From: a virus
Virus record (IMG/VR): IMGVR_UViG_3300032285_001566
Location: 1 to 25,854 of that record
Length of the DNA: 25,854 nt
Reading direction: 5' to 3' (one strand)
Shown here: positions 1,688 to 25,854 of the stretch, one piece after another
How positions within the stretch are numbered: the stretch's first letter is position 1
Layout of the letters: every line of letters starts with the position of its first letter
Notes under the pieces: model-generated
Databases searched by the model: none
The model's input: the letters and a program-made list of their open reading frames with translations, nothing else
What the model was told of the DNA's origin: nothing
Made by a program: the position numbers and the translations under genes

Positions 1688-2275
1688 TTAGATAGTTACT
1701 TCACGAGCTGAGCATTTTGCCAACTCTACAATTGCTTCCTGCTTGGAAATTCGCATTCCCTGCAGAAAGAATGTCTTTTTAACCCGATGCGATACTGAGA
1801 ATCGACGGATTTTATCTGTTCCGCGGGCAAATACTTTCAATTCACCGAAATCGCCTATGGTATCTAATTTATATCGAGCCAACGCAATTCCAATTTCTTT
1901 ATCAGCCACGACAGCGGCAGCCAATTCTGCTTTTTCTTTCTCAAAGCGTTCTTTGTCGTCTTTGATTCTGCGCTGATAATTTTCTTCCAGCATACCTAAC
2001 TTAGTTGTCTTAATATCAAGACCGATTTTAGCCATCACATTAAGTGCTGTAGCAAAATTCATTTCTGCTTCCATATCGCACTCTATTACTTTGGTATCTC
2101 GACCACCGGAGGAATGAGAAAGCTTAACGGTCCATCCATTAGAACCATATTCGCGATCAATATAAAGGGTAATAACATCCTGAGACCAATAACCCTCAAC
2201 CTTAATACGGATTGAACCATGACCATTATAACCAATGTCAGCCAAATTAAAAGGGGAAATTTCGTATCTTGCCAT
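1688..2275 (-). CDS. Phage early protein, unknown function (195 aa)
   Basis: The first and largest gene of its unit. Residues 1-75 look like a beta-rich domain (GHGSIRIKVEGYWSQDVITLYIDREYG). A long charged helix follows around residues 88-125 (EENYQRRIKDDKERFEKEKAELAAAV), then a basic beta-rich C-terminal part. The ATG lies in the shared early leader with AAGGA upstream, about 25 nt after the predicted transcription start of the promoter at 2302-2330. No family recognised. Confidence 0.8.
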   Translation of the reverse strand: MARYEISPFNLADIGYNGHGSIRIKVEGYWSQDVITLYIDREYGSNGWTVKLSHSSGGRDTKVIECDMEAEMNFATALNVMAKIGLDIKTTKLGMLEENYQRRIKDDKERFEKEKAELAAAVVADKEIGIALARYKLDTIGDFGELKVFARGTDKIRRFSVSHRVKKTFFLQGMRISKQEAIVELAKCSAREVTI

Positions 2276-6122: not shown

Positions 6123-6169
6123 GCATTTTTTGAAAGACCCTTTTGCTCATATGGGTACTAAAAGAATGC

Positions 6170-6198
6170 TTGACACAATGGACAAAAGGTGCTATAAT
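6170..6198 (+). promoter_or_regulatory. Rightward early promoter of the divergent pair
   Basis: TTGACA at 6170-6175, a 17-nt spacer ending ACAAAAGGTGC, and TATAAT at 6193-6198 on the plus strand, with the same TGC extensions as the leftward copies. The expected transcription start is 6203-6207, at the ATG pair of the GIY-YIG gene. Confidence 0.92.
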
Positions 6199-6204
6199 AA
6201 CGAC

Positions 6205-6510
6205 ATGATGAGAAAGAAACGTTCTGACCGAAAGCATATAGTATACAGTATCACAAATGCTGTTACTGGTGATTTCTACATTGGCATCACGCAGGGATCT
6301 CGAAAGAAAGATTTGCGTGTTCGTATATTGAAGCACATTCAACGAGCTCGTACTGAGAATCGTTCTTGGGCATTATGTAAAGCAATCAGAGAGTTTGGCG
6401 CTGAATCATTTCTAGCACAAGAGTTAGCGATTGTTCGTGGCAAGACTCCTGCTCATAATTTAGAGCGAGCGCTGATTGCCGAGTATTCGCCAGTTTTGAA
6501 TACACAATAA
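6205..6510 (+). CDS. Small GIY-YIG nuclease, probable free-standing homing endonuclease
   Basis: From ATG 6205 the protein is 101 aa. HIVYSITNAVTGDFYIGIT is the GIY-YIG signature. Next come RVRILKHIQRA, giving the conserved catalytic Arg, and the C-terminal LERALIAEYSPVLNTQ, giving the metal-binding Glu and terminal Asn. Almost the whole protein is the nuclease domain, with no separate DNA-binding tail, so target specificity may be low, as for Seg-type enzymes. The frame extends upstream to 6130, but that would pass through the promoter. The predicted transcription start coincides with the ATG, so the message may be leaderless. It sits exactly at the switch between leftward and rightward units. 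Confidence 0.85.
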   Translation: MMRKKRSDRKHIVYSITNAVTGDFYIGITQGSRKKDLRVRILKHIQRARTENRSWALCKAIREFGAESFLAQELAIVRGKTPAHNLERALIAEYSPVLNTQ

Positions 6511-8455: not shown

Positions 8456-8980
8456 ATGACACTACAAGATTACTTTGAGTTGGTTGAATATAAGATTGGA
8501 GAAGGGTCGAATTATATGTGGCGTTGCTTCGGCGACAATGCATATTGTCTATCTAGCAGCGTGTTTGAAGAATATGAAATTGGTGTCATCTATGATACTA
8601 AAGATCAAACCGTATTTGTATTAGAAGCACATGACTTTATTAATAGACGTTCATATCGTATCTTTAATGAAAAATTTAAAGATGCATACTTTGATGAATG
8701 CAAAACTCGAGGCATTGAAGATGCTGCGTATGATGATGTAAAGTTTATTGATCTTGATTTATACGAAGACTTTGCAGAAAAAGCAAACGCTATTATTCAT
8801 GGTCTAGATTATGATACCAGAGTACTAATGTCTGTTAATATTCCAGATGACGAACTACTGGTTATGATGAAAGCAGCACATAAGTTGGATATTACATTCA
8901 ATGAATTTGTTGAGCAGGCATTGACGGAATCAATCGCTATTTGGAGAGCTAAAGATGGGCTGGCAGACAAATTATTTTGA
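8456..8980 (+). CDS. Phage early protein with C-terminal ribbon-helix-helix-like segment
   Basis: A 174-aa protein. Residues 1-110 form an acidic alpha/beta domain with many Tyr, Phe and Asp (NYMWRCFGDNAYCLSS, VYEA-like AHDFINRRSYR, FIDLDLYEDFAEKANAII). Residues about 123-165, VLMSVNIPDDELLVMMKAAH then KLDITFNEFVEQALTESI, follow the strand-helix-helix pattern of ribbon-helix-helix proteins (V.IPD(D/E)...L...A...(D)IT.NE(F/L)(V/I)...L). The domain could make the protein dimeric and DNA-binding. AGGAT precedes the ATG. I recall similar two-part proteins in other phages, function unknown. Confidence 0.83.
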   Translation: MTLQDYFELVEYKIGEGSNYMWRCFGDNAYCLSSSVFEEYEIGVIYDTKDQTVFVLEAHDFINRRSYRIFNEKFKDAYFDECKTRGIEDAAYDDVKFIDLDLYEDFAEKANAIIHGLDYDTRVLMSVNIPDDELLVMMKAAHKLDITFNEFVEQALTESIAIWRAKDGLADKLF

Positions 8981-10941: not shown

Positions 10942-11673
10942 CTAAGGGTTTAATAATAGAACACATTGGTTTGTGATCACTGAAGTATTGGCGCCGCCGT
11001 ATGGATTTGCGCTTTGAGTTTGTCCTAATTGGCTTGTAGGCACAGTAAAATTGCCAGTATAAACACCAAGTCCCTTACATATTCTAAAACTAGTTATGTA
11101 TCCCGGGAAGTAACTGTTAGATGATGCGGTACTTTCTTGGCCAATACTGAGAGATGTGGTACTATTTGTAATATTATTGTTATCAGAATAAGATGCTCCT
11201 ATTCTAGTACCATTCCTATATATCGAAGTAACATTATTTACTCTAGATATTGCAAAATGTATCCAATTATTTAAATAAGATGTTAGAGAAAAACTGAATC
11301 TATAACCATTAACTTCCCAAACATAAAAAGTACCCCCTTCAATACTGACACCGATAGAAGTGGAAGGATAATTTCCTACAGCAAATACTCGAGGATTTGA
11401 AGGTTGACTTGTCATATATTGCCACCATTCCACAGTAAAATCTCCAGTACCAAATGCCCAATTTGAGCTAGCAGGTATACTAAGATAGTTACTCGTGCCA
11501 TTCATATTATAACTATTTGCAGTTATACCTGAATATGGATTACTACTAGTTGTAGTAGTACCATTTAACGTGGGACTTACTGTACTTGCAATAGATCCTA
11601 TTGCAGATACTTGCACTGTCGAAGATGGGCTCAATGTGCTTCCGTTTATAAAAGTAACATTTTGAATTATCAT
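10942..11673 (-). CDS. LamG/concanavalin A-like virion adhesin, one lectin domain
   Basis: A 243-aa protein starting MIIQNVTFINGSTLSPSSTV. Residues about 55-215 carry a LamG-type jellyroll: FTVEWWQYM, NNWIHFAISRVNN, SIYRNGTRI, then FPGYITSFRICKGLGVYTGNFTVPTSQL. It is very rich in Ser, Thr, Asn and Gly, with no signal peptide, as expected for a virion surface protein rather than an exported one. It probably binds sugars on the host or on surfaces. It follows the larger adhesin directly (stop then ATG) and shares its domain plan, so the pair probably arose by duplication. Exact virion location is not visible. Confidence 0.88.
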   Translation of the reverse strand: MIIQNVTFINGSTLSPSSTVQVSAIGSIASTVSPTLNGTTTTSSNPYSGITANSYNMNGTSNYLSIPASSNWAFGTGDFTVEWWQYMTSQPSNPRVFAVGNYPSTSIGVSIEGGTFYVWEVNGYRFSFSLTSYLNNWIHFAISRVNNVTSIYRNGTRIGASYSDNNNITNSTTSLSIGQESTASSNSYFPGYITSFRICKGLGVYTGNFTVPTSQLGQTQSANPYGGANTSVITNQCVLLLNP

Positions 11674-13719
11674 TTAAATTCCAAATCTATTATGATATTG
11701 AGACCACAGATTTTGTATATCTGTAAGTGTTAATGACCCACTATATGATTTAATAAAACCAATATTTGCTTGACCCGGTTCTCCTGGACCGGCCCTGCAC
11801 CACATTATAAACTGATTAAATCCTCTATTACTATTGGCAGAAAAAGTTGTTGTTTTATATACTGCAGTTGGCCCTACCGTATTATTAACTGTAGATGATG
11901 CAATATAAAGATTTGCAACGCCGGTAGTATAATTATATGTTGCCCAGATAAAATGCCAATTTGTATCTGCAGCATCGTGCGATAACCAAACCTCACTGCC
12001 TGGATAGTATACATTCATATAAACTGTTCCGCTTCCTGGAGCAGGCGCATAAGTTCCTAGTAACCAATCTTGTCCAGAGTTTGCAGATAATATCCTACCT
12101 TGACCTCCTGAAGAAGTTCTACGTGGTTGATATGCCATGAAAACAGAATAACTTGCGTTTGTGGTGTCTGGACCTGAGACAATATTATCTGTTGCTGTAC
12201 TTGCAGTTTTATAGAAATATCCAGGGAATGGATTCAATGAACTATATCCAACTGACAAATTGTTTGTTACTGTAAAATTATAATTGCCACTATCTGTTAG
12301 CAATCCATCGGAATTATTATTTAAAAGCAACAATGCTGTATTGTATGCGCCATAAGAATATGGTGTTGCACTATAAGATGCGCGAACATTAGTTACCGTT
12401 GTAATGCCGCTTGCATCGACATAAGCATTTGCGGAATCCGTTACTTGTAATAATAACTTAGTGTTGGCTACTGCTGTTAATTGAGATGTTGGTACAGTAA
12501 TTATAGTTGAACTTGTCGGATATATTACTGAACCTACAACTACTCGTAAGTTATTCAATAAAAGATTAGAACCATAAGCACTGCCACCGCTCCATGAGTT
12601 TGATGCTATTTGGTTACCATTTGCAAAACTACCATTTGACCAAGCCTGTCTACCGCCTACAACTTGTAATCCGTTTACCCATACATTAACATAAGTACCA
12701 TCGTAACTTGCAGCAACGTGATACCAAGTATTTAATGCGTAATTAAAAGTCCAACTTAGTGCCTGACCAAAAGCATTTTGTATCCATATTGAGGTTCCGC
12801 TAAAATAAAACATCATGCCAGGTGTTGAACTAGTCCCTATAATGTTCTGAACATTTGTATCTGCAAAATTTACAAATGATTCAATTGTCCAACTATTTGA
12901 TCCAAAAACAATAGGAGTCGTTGTTAGATAAGTTGCAGCAGCACTTGTACCTCTAGTAGTAAATGATAAACTGCCGCCGGCAATAGGAGTAGCTGCGTTT
13001 GAAATTGCTGTCAATGGTGCAGTTGGAGGTACAAAATTATTACTTGTATAGACTGCGTTACCATTAACTAATCTAAAATTGGTAAGTTGTCCCGTAATTG
13101 AGGTGGCGCCGGTACCTTGATAACCAACAACAAATGGCGCTGTTTGTTGTCCAATACTAGCAGTACATGATCCGCTTGCTACGTTTGCGCCATTTATAAA
13201 GAGAGTAACGCCGAGTCCATTACGAACTAACGCATAGTGATTCCAAGTACCTAAAGCAGGTAGTGTTGAACCGGTTAAACCAAAACCACCAGTGCCGCTT
13301 AAATATGGAAAGTTTTGAGCTGTGCCTGTAGGGTAATAGAATAATTGACTGCCAGAGGTGTATCCAAAAGGACTATCATATGAACCACGGGCCGTTTGGC
13401 GCAACCAATATTCAATGGTCCAACTATTATTACTTAAAGTAAATGCAGCATTTGCAGCAACGTTCATGTATTGATTTACAGTGCCGGTAAAAATTGCACT
13501 ACCCGATGTTTGCTGTGCACTGAATCCAATAGTTGAACTTGAATTGTTTACTGTTAATGTATATGTGTTGGTAGAATCTTTGTTTCCCGTAACTGGGGCT
13601 GATGAAAAATTAATTGCATCTAAGTCATAAACCAATGGCGCACTTATAGTTATATTTACATAAGCACCGGGGGTGAATGTCATTCCTTCAGTTAAAACTA
13701 TTCCGCCGTTAATTATCAT
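11674..13719 (-). CDS. Large multi-domain LamG-type virion adhesin
   Basis: A 681-aa protein starting MIINGGIVLTEGMTFTPGA. It contains three lectin-like domains. Domain 1 is about residues 70-235 (WTIEYWLRQ, GTWNHYALVRNG, TLFINGANV, FRLVNGNAVYT..FVPPTAPL). Domain 2 is about 250-425 (WTIESFVNF, NTWYHVAASYDG, NVWVNGLQV, LRVVVGSVIYP..TVPTSQL). Domain 3 is about 480-681 (YSVFMAYQPRR, NWHFIWATYN, FIKSYSGSLTLTDIQNLW). Each lectin unit ends with a shared (F/L)R.V.G..(V/I)Y...P(T).(Q/P)L phrase. It has no signal peptide. It probably decorates the capsid or tail and binds carbohydrate. The ATG overlaps the amidotransferase-like gene's TGA. Confidence 0.9.
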   Translation of the reverse strand: MIINGGIVLTEGMTFTPGAYVNITISAPLVYDLDAINFSSAPVTGNKDSTNTYTLTVNNSSSTIGFSAQQTSGSAIFTGTVNQYMNVAANAAFTLSNNSWTIEYWLRQTARGSYDSPFGYTSGSQLFYYPTGTAQNFPYLSGTGGFGLTGSTLPALGTWNHYALVRNGLGVTLFINGANVASGSCTASIGQQTAPFVVGYQGTGATSITGQLTNFRLVNGNAVYTSNNFVPPTAPLTAISNAATPIAGGSLSFTTRGTSAAATYLTTTPIVFGSNSWTIESFVNFADTNVQNIIGTSSTPGMMFYFSGTSIWIQNAFGQALSWTFNYALNTWYHVAASYDGTYVNVWVNGLQVVGGRQAWSNGSFANGNQIASNSWSGGSAYGSNLLLNNLRVVVGSVIYPTSSTIITVPTSQLTAVANTKLLLQVTDSANAYVDASGITTVTNVRASYSATPYSYGAYNTALLLLNNNSDGLLTDSGNYNFTVTNNLSVGYSSLNPFPGYFYKTASTATDNIVSGPDTTNASYSVFMAYQPRRTSSGGQGRILSANSGQDWLLGTYAPAPGSGTVYMNVYYPGSEVWLSHDAADTNWHFIWATYNYTTGVANLYIASSTVNNTVGPTAVYKTTTFSANSNRGFNQFIMWCRAGPGEPGQANIGFIKSYSGSLTLTDIQNLWSQYHNRFGI

Positions 13720-14489: not shown

Positions 14490-14891
14490 TTAACTTTTTA
14501 AGTTTTTAATATGAGTACGATGAATTCTGCATTGTATCTGACCGTTATAATAATCTTCCGATTCCAATACTCTCCTATCCATCTGCTCCCTAGCTTCAAG
14601 GTAATTGCATAATCCTTTATTTGGACATATATGCAATATTTCTCTAACAAAATTATCTTCGCCGTGCTTTAATACATCAGCTTTTAACTCATCAGATGAA
14701 GACCAATAATCTCTCCAATCTGATTCTACCTTTAATCTTTTCTTTTTACCTTTAACTACTTTAGTTTTTCTAAACCAAAATAGTTTTTTACCTATATATC
14801 TACGATTAGTAATAGTGTTAGTAATCAGATAAACATACCCATATGCATCATCTGGAATTACTTCTAATTCTTTGTTCTTATATAACCACAT
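14490..14891 (-). CDS. GIY-YIG endonuclease, probable free-standing homing nuclease
   Basis: A 133-aa protein. GYVYLITNTITNRRYIGKK (residues about 18-36) is the GIY-YIG signature. A basic segment KTKVVKGKKKRLK and ESDWRDYWSSSDELKADVLKHG follow. The conserved Glu is in CNYLEAREQMDRRVL, and the end YYNGQIQCRIHRTHI supplies the terminal Asn. It is similar in plan to T4-like GIY-YIG proteins of 120-150 aa. A TATAAATA late-type promoter lies just upstream (14913-14920). It sits between the zinc-finger gene and the adhesin block. Function as a homing nuclease is inferred from the domain and its placement. Confidence 0.85.
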   Translation of the reverse strand: MWLYKNKELEVIPDDAYGYVYLITNTITNRRYIGKKLFWFRKTKVVKGKKKRLKVESDWRDYWSSSDELKADVLKHGEDNFVREILHICPNKGLCNYLEAREQMDRRVLESEDYYNGQIQCRIHRTHIKNLKS

Positions 14892-16466: not shown

Positions 16467-17647
16467 TTTGCCCAGACCTCTTCCCATGAACCAGACAAGG
16501 ATCCTTTAGCATAATCAGTTACACGTTGCTCAAAGAAATTAGTATGTGTAGGCGCATTAATCATTTCCTCAACCCACGGCAATGGATTACGTTTAACTTT
16601 AAAGATGCCTTTTAGACCTAATGAAATTAATCTACGATCAGCAATATAACGAATATACTTTTTAACTTCTTCGGATGTAAGATTTTTCATCTCACCCATG
16701 CTAAATGCTAGATCAATAAACTTATCTTCAAGCTCAACCATCTTTTCAGCAATAGAATAAATTTTGCCTTTTAGATCATCGTTCCAAATTTCTTTGTTCT
16801 CTTCGATATATGTTCTAAACAACTTAATCATATTCTCAGCGTGCATTGTTTCATCTACAATAGACCAAGTAACAATTTGACCCATGCCTTTCATGTTCCC
16901 ATTACGGGGAAAGTTCAATAACATAATAAAAGAACTAAACAATTGCATACCTTCGGTGAATGCTGAGAATACTGCGATGTGCGTTGCTGTATTCTCTTTT
17001 GTCGAGTTCTTTTGGGATAAATCCAACACATACTCGTGCTTGTCCTTCATTTCCTGATATTCCATAAACTCATTGTATGTGCTTTCTGGCATACCAAGTG
17101 ATTCGATAAGATGGGAATATGCTGCAATATGCAATGCTTCTCTTGCAGCAAATCCTAATAACATCATTCGTACTTCAGGTTGTGGGAAGTATGGTAAGTA
17201 ATTATTTACATATCCACCAGCAACGTCAATATCACCTTGAGTAAAGAAACGGAAAATGTTAGTAAGAAAATGTTTTTCGGAATCTGTTAGTTTGTTTTTC
17301 CAATCCTTAACATCTTCCAACATAGGTACTTCTGTATGGCTCGTTGTTCAAATATGGTCGTTAATCATATTCCGTCTTTCGACCGCTATATATTCCTATA
17401 TAGAGCAGACTATCTCTTCACCTTTTGGTGCTGGGTGCTTCCATTCACTTGAATGTACTTCCTTTCGGAATAGTCGTTACACCTTCCTCATATGAGGCTC
17501 GGCTCGGTGTTGTCCGTTCTGGATGTTCACCGAATTCTCCCAGTTTATACTGACCCCTTAGTTAAGCCAGTGTGATTGTTCGTGTTTTAACCATGCGTCG
17601 TATGCAAATGGATAATTGAAAGGCTTGAATGCGCTTCTTTCATCCAT
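16463..17647 (-). CDS. nrdB: Ribonucleotide reductase class Ia small subunit, split by a group I intron
   Basis: The spliced product is 319 aa: exon 1 is 17647-17565, exon 2 is 17339-16463. Exon 1 ends YPFAYDAWLKHEQSHWL and exon 2 continues HTEVPMLEDVKDW, restoring the family's N-terminal sequence without gap or loss. In spliced numbering the di-iron ligands are Asp64, Glu95, His98, Glu157, Glu191 and His194, and the radical tyrosine is Tyr102 (REALHIAAYSHL). All match E. coli spacing (D84, E115, H118, Y122, E204, E238, H241). It partners with NrdA encoded upstream. An earlier in-frame ATG at 17674 would overlap the upstream endonuclease gene; the choice is uncertain. Unspliced RNA meets an in-frame TAA six bases after the codon for the last exon-1 residue. 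Confidence 0.95.
17340..17564 (-). ncRNA. Self-splicing group I intron (IA-like) in nrdB, no ORF
   Basis: 225 nt. P1 pairs exon UGGCU with internal guide GGUCA, ending in the expected U-G pair at the 5' splice site; the last intron base is G. The R and S core strands are visible as AACGACTAT and AGATAGTC, which pair as P7. Other helices: P4 (CGGTG/CACCG), P6 (CCTCAT/ATGAGG), P7.1 (TTCC-GAAA-GGAA), P7.2 (CATTC-AAGT-GAATG), P8 (CACC-AAAA-GGTG), P9-type hairpins ending at AATATG...CATATT. P10 is CC of exon 2 with GG beside the guide. The P7.1/P7.2 insertion points to the IA group of T4 introns. There is no coding frame inside, and the sequence is well over typical decay, so it should be active. 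Confidence 0.93.
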
Positions 17648-17651
17648 TAAA

Positions 17652-18305
17652 TTAGATTTTGTTTTCTTTATCATTTTTTTTAGTTGTTCCTAAATAATAT
17701 TTATTGCCTGGGCATTCTTTTGCCCGCCTATTTTTAACACCATCTGTCCACCATTTATATCCTTTTACGTTGGTATTACCTTTTGCACCTTCGGATTGTT
17801 TTTTTCTGTATTCGTCTGTTATTCGTTTCTTTGTTATTTCTGGATTTTTACTAGGATTGTTTTCCCCTCGCATCCTTTTAGAAATTTTTTCTCTCCAAGC
17901 ATCACTTTTTTCGTAACTATGATTTAAAAAATTATGTGTGCCATTTTCAATTCTTTTCTTTGCTGCAATACTATTTGATATTTTTCTTTTTATGTTGCCG
18001 CGTTCAATAGATTCTTTTGTATTTAATATTCCAGGAGCCAAATTTCTATTTATTAATATTGATAAAAATTTATCTTTCCCCAATAGCCTATAACATTTAT
18101 TCAAATATCTTTTTTCATATTCTCTTGCATCATTTCTTTGTACAATTTTAATTATTTTAAAATCAGAATAATTTAAATTTACATAATAATTTGACGTAAA
18201 GTATGAATTAAATAAATTTGATGGATCGGATTTTTTACCATATTGACATCCAATATAATATCTTCCTGTAGAAATTTCTTGTATTTTGTAAAAGTAAGGG
18301 TTCAT
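17652..18305 (-). CDS. GIY-YIG homing endonuclease next to the intron
   Basis: A 217-aa protein from ATG 18305, chosen because GGAGG lies six bases upstream; a longer frame begins at 18365. FYKIQEISTGRYYIGCQYG is the GIY-YIG motif (residues about 5-23). The catalytic Glu is in DAREYEKRYLN and the conserved Asn in ILINRNLAPG. The C-terminal half is a DNA-binding region with NUMOD3-like units (RMRGENNPSKNPE, SEGAKGNTNVKG) and a final WWTDGVKNRRAKECPG block known from phage homing enzymes. It appears intact. It has its own TATAAATA promoter and a strong ribosome binding site. Its stop lies 4 nt before the nrdB ATG at 17647, between trx and nrdB, like mobE-type insertions in T4 relatives. Confidence 0.9.
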   Translation of the reverse strand: MNPYFYKIQEISTGRYYIGCQYGKKSDPSNLFNSYFTSNYYVNLNYSDFKIIKIVQRNDAREYEKRYLNKCYRLLGKDKFLSILINRNLAPGILNTKESIERGNIKRKISNSIAAKKRIENGTHNFLNHSYEKSDAWREKISKRMRGENNPSKNPEITKKRITDEYRKKQSEGAKGNTNVKGYKWWTDGVKNRRAKECPGNKYYLGTTKKNDKENKI

Positions 18306-18361: not shown

Positions 18362-18613
18362 TCAATCATTTAACCACTCCTTTAAAATTGTTTCAGATTT
18401 TACACCAACGATTGTTTTCAATGCTTGTCCATCTTCATTTACCATTACTAATGTAGGTACACTACGTATTCTATATTCTGCAGCCACATCAGGAAATACA
18501 TCAATATCAACTACTTCAATTGGAATATTACCTGTGTTTGCACCTTCTAATATCTTTGCCATTGCTTTACATGGCTGGCACCATGATGCTGTAAATCTAT
18601 AAACTTTTTTCAC
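18362..18613 (-). CDS. Thioredoxin-like protein, likely reductant for NrdA
   Basis: An 83-aa protein. FTASWCQPCKAM holds the CxxC active site (CQPC, Cys12 and Cys15). VPTLVMVN has the cis-Pro of thioredoxins. The C-terminal strand and helix follow (GQALKTIVGVKSETILKEWLND). It is shorter than E. coli thioredoxin (about 108 aa), more like phage NrdC/thioredoxin hybrids. The start is GTG 18613, supported by AAGGA seven bases upstream. Its place between nrdA and nrdB argues that it re-reduces NrdA's C-terminal cysteines. Confidence 0.88.
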   Translation of the reverse strand: MKKVYRFTASWCQPCKAMAKILEGANTGNIPIEVVDIDVFPDVAAEYRIRSVPTLVMVNEDGQALKTIVGVKSETILKEWLND

Positions 18614-25183: not shown

Positions 25184-25854
25184 TTATGATGTTATTCCGT
25201 AGTAATTTCTTAACCAGGTCTCAAGAGCTAGGTAATCTCCAAGAGTTGTTTCTCCAGAACAAATAATTAAACATACTGTTTGGAAATCACTCTTCTCTGT
25301 GCTATATTTATTAATTGCTAAAGTGGCTGGATATGTTGTAATACCCGATCCTGTTCCTCGAGTGACTCCATTTGTTCTTCCCAAATTTAATTGATCTGTA
25401 GTAAGAAACCAATTTGTGCCATAATAATCAGTAACTCCATCTGAACCAGTTAATAAACTGCCATGTTTAAATTGACCTGCTGCGCCATTAATATGCCCCG
25501 ACGCCCAATCTTGACCGCCAGTTGTTGAATAAATTCTTTGTTTGTTTGAACCCGAATATCTTGTTACATGGAATATAGTATACGTGTTTGATACAAGTCC
25601 CGTAGGCCAGGTAATACTACTTGATGTAGAGCCACTTATTGCCGATACAAGATTTGTATTTGCACCATTCCCGCCAGAAAGTGATACTAATGAACAATTG
25701 ACTGTGGTTGCTGAAATAGATGTGTTGCCTAATCTATCATACCAAACTTGACGACGGTCATCAAATGATTGTTCGTCATACCAAGCAACTATGTTTGCTA
25801 AATCTCTCGGAGAATTTGGCCAAGTAATTGTGGTCACATCAGCAACATTTGCGG
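25184..25854 (-). CDS. C-terminal part of a lectin-like tail or fibre protein (5' end outside window)
   Basis: At least 223 aa. A GTG at 25837 is possible as start, but the frame stays open to the window edge (…ANVADVTTITWP), so the gene is probably longer. The visible part has a LamG/concanavalin pattern: VAWYDEQSFDDRRQVWYDRLG, YTIFHVTRYSGS, GTNWFLTTDQLNLGR, ending GDYLALETWLRNYYGITS. The end resembles that of domain 3 in the 681-aa adhesin. A structural receptor-binding role is likely. Confidence 0.75.
   Translation of the reverse strand, partial: ANVADVTTITWPNSPRDLANIVAWYDEQSFDDRRQVWYDRLGNTSISATTVNCSLVSLSGGNGANTNLVSAISGSTSSSITWPTGLVSNTYTIFHVTRYSGSNKQRIYSTTGGQDWASGHINGAAGQFKHGSLLTGSDGVTDYYGTNWFLTTDQLNLGRTNGVTRGTGSGITTYPATLAINKYSTEKSDFQTVCLIICSGETTLGDYLALETWLRNYYGITS

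Follow-up and report, generated by a model that had tools for sequence, protein, structure and literature searches.

A predicted ORF-less group I intron at codon 37 of a viral nrdB gene and an upstream GIY-YIG-type endonuclease gene as a probable collaborative homing pair

The nrdB gene, encoding the class I ribonucleotide reductase small subunit, is interrupted at codon 37 in a 25,854-nucleotide stretch of viral DNA (IMG/VR record IMGVR_UViG_3300032285_001566, hereafter the window) by what is, judged from its sequence, a compact ORF-less group I intron. A predicted free-standing GIY-YIG-type homing endonuclease gene, which the initial annotation had overlooked, lies between a thioredoxin gene and nrdB. 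An ORF-less intron with a free-standing endonuclease alongside is the layout of collaborative homing, and the neighbouring gene turns an otherwise stranded intron into a probable two-part mobile element. We regard it as probable that the intron moves by collaborative homing with the upstream endonuclease, which would be aimed at nrdB codons 20-41; both may be selfish elements spreading jointly. The intron site and the endonuclease family appear to be new, while the kind of intron and the collaborative arrangement are already known; a literature search covering few subscription papers returned neither an insertion site at codon 37, nor this endonuclease family upstream of nrdB, nor the substitution footprint in carriers of the gene. 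The coordinates of the features are collected in Table 1.

Table 1 Features of the nrdB locus in the window.
Feature	Position	Strand	Basis or detail
Group I intron of 225 nt without an ORF, IA-like (P7.1 and P7.2 present)	17564-17340	minus	RF00028, covariation, exact join
P1, end of exon 1 and internal guide	17549-17571	minus	fold of 17542-17574; last exon base U17565 opposite G17555
P7 5' strand, GACUA	17475-17471	minus	read from sequence; invariant in 8 introns
P7 3' strand, UAGUC	17412-17408	minus	read from sequence; invariant in 8 introns
nrdB exon 1	17674-17565	minus	codons 1-36 plus the first two bases of codon 37
nrdB exon 2, class I ribonucleotide reductase small subunit	17339-16463	minus	PF00268, E 2.1e-63
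Free-standing GIY-YIG-type homing endonuclease gene (predicted), 217 aa, ATG at 18305	17652-18305	minus	phrog_314, motifs, model
Small thioredoxin-domain gene, upstream	18362-18613	minus	phrog_22, E 5.8e-13
Putative endonuclease target within exon 1, codons 20-37	17565-17617	minus	carriage-associated positions
Putative endonuclease target within exon 2, from the last part of codon 37 through codon 41	17327-17339	minus	carriage-associated positions

The reading frame of nrdB locates the interruption exactly. An ORF caller begins the gene at 17323 and reports 286 aa, losing the first 42 (or 33) residues, whereas joining U17565 to C17339 gives one open NrdB frame of 328 aa. Both outcomes agree with the initial annotation, which held that an ORF caller alone would miss the true start and that an exact join would yield an unbroken NrdB. 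Exon 1 contributes 37 residues of the spliced protein (28 if the second Met is the start), its translated product being MIKKTKSNLMDERSAFKPFNYPFAYDAWLKHEQSHWL, and the predicted join runs from ...CACUGGCU to CCAUACAG, with the intron interrupting codon 37 in the junction HW36L37|H38TEV. The insertion had also been placed far from the iron-site codons; this is right along the sequence, but the intron follows a conserved Trp, Trp36, the counterpart of E. coli Trp48 of the radical-transfer path. A single NrdB match was found in the record, which is a 25.9-kb fragment of a genome.

For the intron itself, a local covariance search with laxer filters, the check that had been proposed for it, gave an RF00028 match on the minus strand at 17386-17615 with 60.0 bits, above the gathering cut-off of 50 (E 1.2e-14). 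A whole-window Rfam search with fast filters at the gathering threshold returned no match, so a routine run could miss this intron, and an ORF caller combined with such a scan would deliver a truncated enzyme with the intron unseen. The local search also produced rows for snR52, mir-8186 and ceN47, which we rejected with scores far below their own cut-offs. Folded by itself, P1 pairs 17571-17564 to 17556-17549 and has U-G pairs at the splice site (-7.9 kcal/mol, z -2.5; 2 of 200 shuffled sequences did as well). Because U17564 also faces a G, the splice position is set by the terminal G at 17340 together with the reading frame. Hairpins for P7.1, P7.2 and P8 are present as well, so that every structural element originally listed (P1 with its U-G pair at the splice site, P7, P7.1, P7.2, P8 and the terminal G) could be located, P1 by folding.

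Eight related introns align at 78% mean column identity. In this alignment, 27 of the 55 predicted pairs have at least one sequence in which both sides have changed and the pair is kept, while P7, being invariant in all eight, is neutral as to covariation. The P7.1 and P7.2 hairpins fall at columns 79-90 and 94-107, and the presence of both is a mark of group I subgroup IA. The proposal of an ORF-less group I intron at 17340-17564 is borne out by the RF00028 score, the covariation and the exact reading frame, and the intron probably removes itself by self-splicing. That the gap might instead be an assembly artefact, or that nrdB might be disrupted and inactive, is suggested by the origin of the locus in one metagenomic record known as DNA sequence alone; given the RF00028 match, the covariation, P1 and the exact frame, we consider this extremely improbable.

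The same codons are uninterrupted in the relatives. All 81 nrdB homologs in the first sample (the best 80 of some 600 listed, plus L135) read continuously through the intron site, 79 of them from the N-terminus and 2 from a contig edge, which settles the alignment of intronless homologs at the junction that had been called for. Since L002 and the other 80 relatives read straight through, the gap in the window is not a matter of chance. In a later sample, 188 of 188 other distinct nrdB genes also read straight through the motif at the junction. The closest relative among the matches listed, L002 (98% amino acid identity over exon 2), has neither the intron nor the upstream endonuclease gene, and in it nrdB comes directly after the thioredoxin gene. 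IMG/VR was scanned with two patterns for the start of the 3' exon preceded by G, and the 33 stretches that fitted (21 and 12) include none that reads as nrdB; an intron ending at this place would make 122 of 134 distinct nrdB genes fit one or the other pattern, and the scans possibly omit records that closely resemble the window. An intron at codon 37 was seen in one genome.

The upstream endonuclease gene overlaps nrdB by 23 nt at its end if nrdB starts at the first Met. Its product matches the homing endonuclease family phrog_314 (E 4.2e-5) and, just under the Pfam cut-off, NUMOD3 (E 8e-4); no Pfam GIY-YIG model matched the window protein. Among 18 family members compared with Pfam, four match PF19835 and one PF01541 (E up to 0.1). 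The family shares loose GIY (PYFYKI) and Y[IV]G segments, and all 18 members have Y6, Y17, G19, E64 and N86; the counterparts of the catalytic Tyr, Tyr, Glu and Asn of I-TevI are among these conserved residues. The catalytic Arg of I-TevI is Arg27, and no invariant Arg is obvious at that place in the family; R57 and R61 are nearly invariant.

A structure model built from the 18 members has a mean pLDDT of 78.5, rising to about 90 in the first 80 residues, and a pTM of 0.44. Its best structural match is the catalytic domain of I-TevI, with Z 6.0 (also 5.7) over 78 residues at 3.2 Å, a weak match with Z under 8, followed by a UvrC GIY-YIG domain at Z 4.5 and unrelated rows at 3.5. Foldseek alone returned nothing at E 0.001 with this model, and the sequence profile returned nothing from the PDB at E 1. 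The low Z is weak alone, but it agrees with the conserved GIY-YIG motifs. The designation as a GIY-YIG-type homing endonuclease is supported by family and motifs and the fold is suggested by the model; from these we infer the activity.

Relatives of the endonuclease are rare, occurring in only 14 of 50,697 phage records at 26-30% identity. Thirty family loci were inspected: 16 have nrdB directly downstream, each without an intron at the site, two end before nrdB becomes visible and have nrdA upstream, three lie near very distant nrd genes, and nine show no nrd gene in the stretch examined. The family stands directly 5' of an intronless nrdB in 15 other distinct phages. A branch of the family with a longer protein (about 272 aa; L136 and L236-L239) has no nrd gene in the stretch examined.

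These phages allowed us to look for a footprint of the endonuclease in NrdB, by comparing the substitutions of carriers, the genomes with the nrdB-linked endonuclease, with those of non-carriers. To count as a non-carrier, a genome had to offer at least 300 nt of sequence upstream of nrdB and, in tblastn with the 18 family members (E 1e-4), no match whose end fell inside the nearest 500 nt; the label refers to the nrdB-linked family alone. Each nrdB scan supplied its 80 best stretches out of at least 599 or 600 that matched, so the counts describe the samples and not IMG/VR, and the carriers were mostly recruited by searching with the endonuclease. Rows were dropped for too little upstream sequence (11), absence of nrdB (11), absence of its 5' end (2) or identity under 60% (2), as were six rows reading LKPF for FKPF, all of them non-carriers with HWLHSEVPM; a smaller footprint set lost four rows to the FKPF filter. 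Duplicates over the first 240 nt were merged, and two rows with a weak endonuclease match, both with the motif unaltered, were kept apart.

The junction motif HWLH[TS]EVPM is altered in 12 of 15 carriers, the window being left out, versus 10 of 171 non-carriers (Fisher 1e-10). The altered carriers read FSEV (five), FGEV (two), SWLHTEV (two), HLEC, HTEC and HWIM (one each); FSEV, FGEV and SWLHTEV each occur once among the 171 non-carriers, and the other three forms are absent from them. When genomes are grouped by NrdB identity to the window, altered motifs are found in 2/2 carriers versus 1/2 non-carriers at 70-78%, 5/7 versus 6/72 at 78-82% and 5/6 versus 3/88 at 82-86%; above 86% there is no carrier and 0 of 9 non-carriers is altered. 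Three of the ten motif-altered non-carriers were inspected (L210, L044, L010), none with an endonuclease upstream. L301 and L210 are non-carriers that read FGEV and FSEV, respectively, L210 being the nearest genome on the tree to the carrier L221; it is possible that these forms are scars of a lost endonuclease.

Ranked by association with carriage, the 313 NrdB positions are headed by 38, 20, 30, 39, 24, 22 and 41. The top position, H38, deviates in 8 of 15 carriers versus 2 of 171 non-carriers, and the smaller set also puts it first (p 1.5e-8). At positions conserved in at least 94% of non-carriers, deviations amount to 8.5% in carriers (without the window) versus 1.1% in non-carriers within codons 16-48, while beyond codon 60 the figures are 1.2% and 0.6%, carriers being somewhat more divergent overall. 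At least one deviation in codons 16-48 is present in 16 of 16 carriers, including the window (W23F), versus 39 of 171 non-carriers. Three of the 15 carriers (L031, L235 and L289) keep the junction motif and deviate elsewhere in these codons. The spliced NrdB of the window keeps the common HWLHTEVPM, and it is the intron that interrupts this motif in the DNA. This distribution points to nrdB codons 20-41, which contain the intron site, as the most likely endonuclease target.

Shared descent was considered by means of the NrdB tree, on which carriage needs at least 10 changes. Among nine independent tree pairs, an alteration of the motif confined to the carrier occurs in 5.5 on average and one confined to the non-carrier in 0, with positions 22, 20 and 38 ranking first to third; restricting the count to supported branches leaves four pairs, with 3.3 to 0, too few for significance. 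Three close pairs illustrate the pattern: L222 (carrier, FGEV) with L184 (HTEV) at 97.8% downstream amino acid identity, L225 (carrier, SWLHTEV) with L261 at 95.5%, and the window (carrier, intron) with L002 at 98.1%. In each, the difference in carriage coincides with a motif change or with the intron.

The motif changes might also be passengers, brought in by co-conversion from diverged donors and not selected as resistance, in which case the target could lie anywhere nearby. Local nucleotide divergence is indeed raised in L222/L184 (21/90 versus 78/807, p 3e-4), in its near relative L223/L184 (p 1.6e-3) and between the window and L002 (14/90 versus 65/804, p 0.02), while the pair L225/L261 is a borderline case (p 0.05). 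The remaining 12 of the 16 pairs, however, show no significant rise (p 0.08 or more), although the motif differs in nine of them, and the rarity or absence of the substituted forms among the 171 non-carriers argues that they are not ordinary alleles carried along. We therefore think passengers an unlikely explanation of the footprint.

The comparison of the window with L002 also bears on whether intron and endonuclease belong together. Exon 1 differs at 12 of 65 positions and exon 2 at 69 of 874 (p 0.007), and none of 60 close non-carrier pairs has an exon 1 identity so low or a gap between the exons so large. No long match in the L002 record was found for the stretch that runs from the intron past the endonuclease gene to a point shortly upstream of it. 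Identity between the two genomes varies elsewhere too. The diverged exon 1 and the unmatched stretch fit what co-conversion would leave.

If their adjacency were coincidental, the intron would be an immobile remnant and the endonuclease would home alone, aiming at another part of nrdB or at the intergenic region. The 15 other distinct carriers without the intron, which show that the endonuclease does not need it, and the tendency of conserved codons to draw many elements would both accord with this. Three observations speak against it: the seven most carriage-associated positions fall in codons 20-41 around the intron site, exon 1 has diverged from L002 beyond exon 2 to a degree outside all 60 control pairs, and L002, closest of the relatives listed, is without both elements. 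Coincidence thus seems to us rather improbable, and collaborative homing is the reading that we prefer.

Under collaborative homing, the endonuclease would act in mixed infections, cutting an nrdB without intron and endonuclease gene around codons 20-41, and repair from the window genome would copy the endonuclease gene, exon 1 and the intron together. By analogy with I-TevI, which cuts 23-25 nt upstream of its intron site, the cut would be expected near codons 29-30. Carriers would shield their own nrdB chiefly through changes in the target sequence; in the window, the intron would also break the target, with the spliced NrdB retaining the common motif.

The locus can further be read, tentatively, as a predicted intermediate in the origin of a mobile intron, which we find quite possible though short of probable. 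The endonuclease would first have colonised the slot upstream of nrdB repeatedly, with no intron, and carriers would have escaped by altering a near-invariant motif; in one phage, an ORF-less intron would then have landed once in the target, sparing the protein and becoming the passenger of the endonuclease. If this holds, carriers and their close non-carriers make up a natural footprint of the endonuclease target. Convergence of an intron and an endonuclease on the same target is the presumed origin of mobile introns. Since the endonuclease occurs in one genome that has the intron and in 15 others that lack it, the sequence of events, the target and the ways of self-protection become directly testable. 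Passages of PMC10448857 call the start of such intron-endonuclease pairing unclear.

Turnover of homing endonuclease genes, as proposed for such loci in parts of the same source (PMC10448857), would reverse this order: the intron would once have held an endonuclease ORF of its own and lost it, and the upstream gene would be a later replacement. Several related introns do overlap annotated HNH genes. The best-matching introns, however, include some of nearly equal length with no room for an ORF (L099, L084, L105), and the presence of the endonuclease upstream of intronless nrdB in 15 other phages suggests that the endonuclease came first, which makes an earlier ORF loss distinctly unlikely.

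Phage T4 offers one close parallel. As described in passages of PMC2988022, its nrdB intron with I-TevIII and the free-standing MobE between nrdA and nrdB are a case of trans homing. The window shares with T4 a group I intron in nrdB and a free-standing endonuclease upstream, which acts on nrdB in T4 and would do so here. It differs in the site, because exon 1 of T4 is open to residue 221, whereas codon 37 of the window is level with T4 residues 46-53, T4 NrdB having FFWRPEEV from residue 46 opposite the window junction. It differs also in that the T4 nrdB intron contains an HNH ORF, and in that MobE is an HNH enzyme while the window endonuclease is predicted to be of GIY-YIG type.

Collaborative homing has been described, in sections of PMC3984707 and PMC10448857, for the cyanophage psbA intron with F-CphI, for T3/T7-like phages and for the ICP1 terminase intron with an adjacent T5orf172 gene. 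Like those loci, the window would combine an intron with an adjacent free-standing endonuclease aimed at the intron site; unlike them, it concerns another gene and another endonuclease family, and its target is deduced from intronless carriers and not from cleavage. An nrdB intron in Pectobacterium phage CB7, reported in part of PMC7344957 to be spliced by RT-PCR, holds an HNH gene, in contrast to that of the window. Since the part of CB7 nrdB after the intron is 387 nt, that intron lies far downstream and does not occupy the window site.

RF00028-type introns in phage genes for DNA polymerase, RNA polymerase, capsid and other products have the same consensus helices as the window intron. Over about 200 nt, its core shares 72-78% identity with introns of uncultured phages, and Erwinia phage phiEa1H and Salmonella phage Vi06 have matches inside or next to their DNA polymerase genes. 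Compared with these relatives, the window intron has another host gene and site (host genes being read by eye), no ORF and its own P1.

One viral contig, L108, holds five matches to the nrdB intron (1574-2607 and 8714-8864), four of them within about 1 kb. In L096, a related intron (1874-2093, minus strand) stands immediately before a sequence that, by eye, resembles the second half of another nrdB, and a GIY-YIG-like ORF lies upstream; the intron family may thus occupy a second site in nrdB.

The window holds two more GIY-YIG ORFs, one of the SegE type at 14490-14891 on the minus strand (PF19835, E 5.1e-37) and one at 6130-6507 on the plus strand (PF01541, E 3.8e-5). The stretch at 14490-14891 is about 99.5% identical in the L002 record, from which the nrdB-linked endonuclease is absent. 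Three minus-strand ORFs (10942-11673, 11674-13719 and 25184-25837) contain recurring similar segments that look by eye like LamG-type lectin domains, and the stretch at 12211-13509 is without a counterpart at that place in the L002 record.
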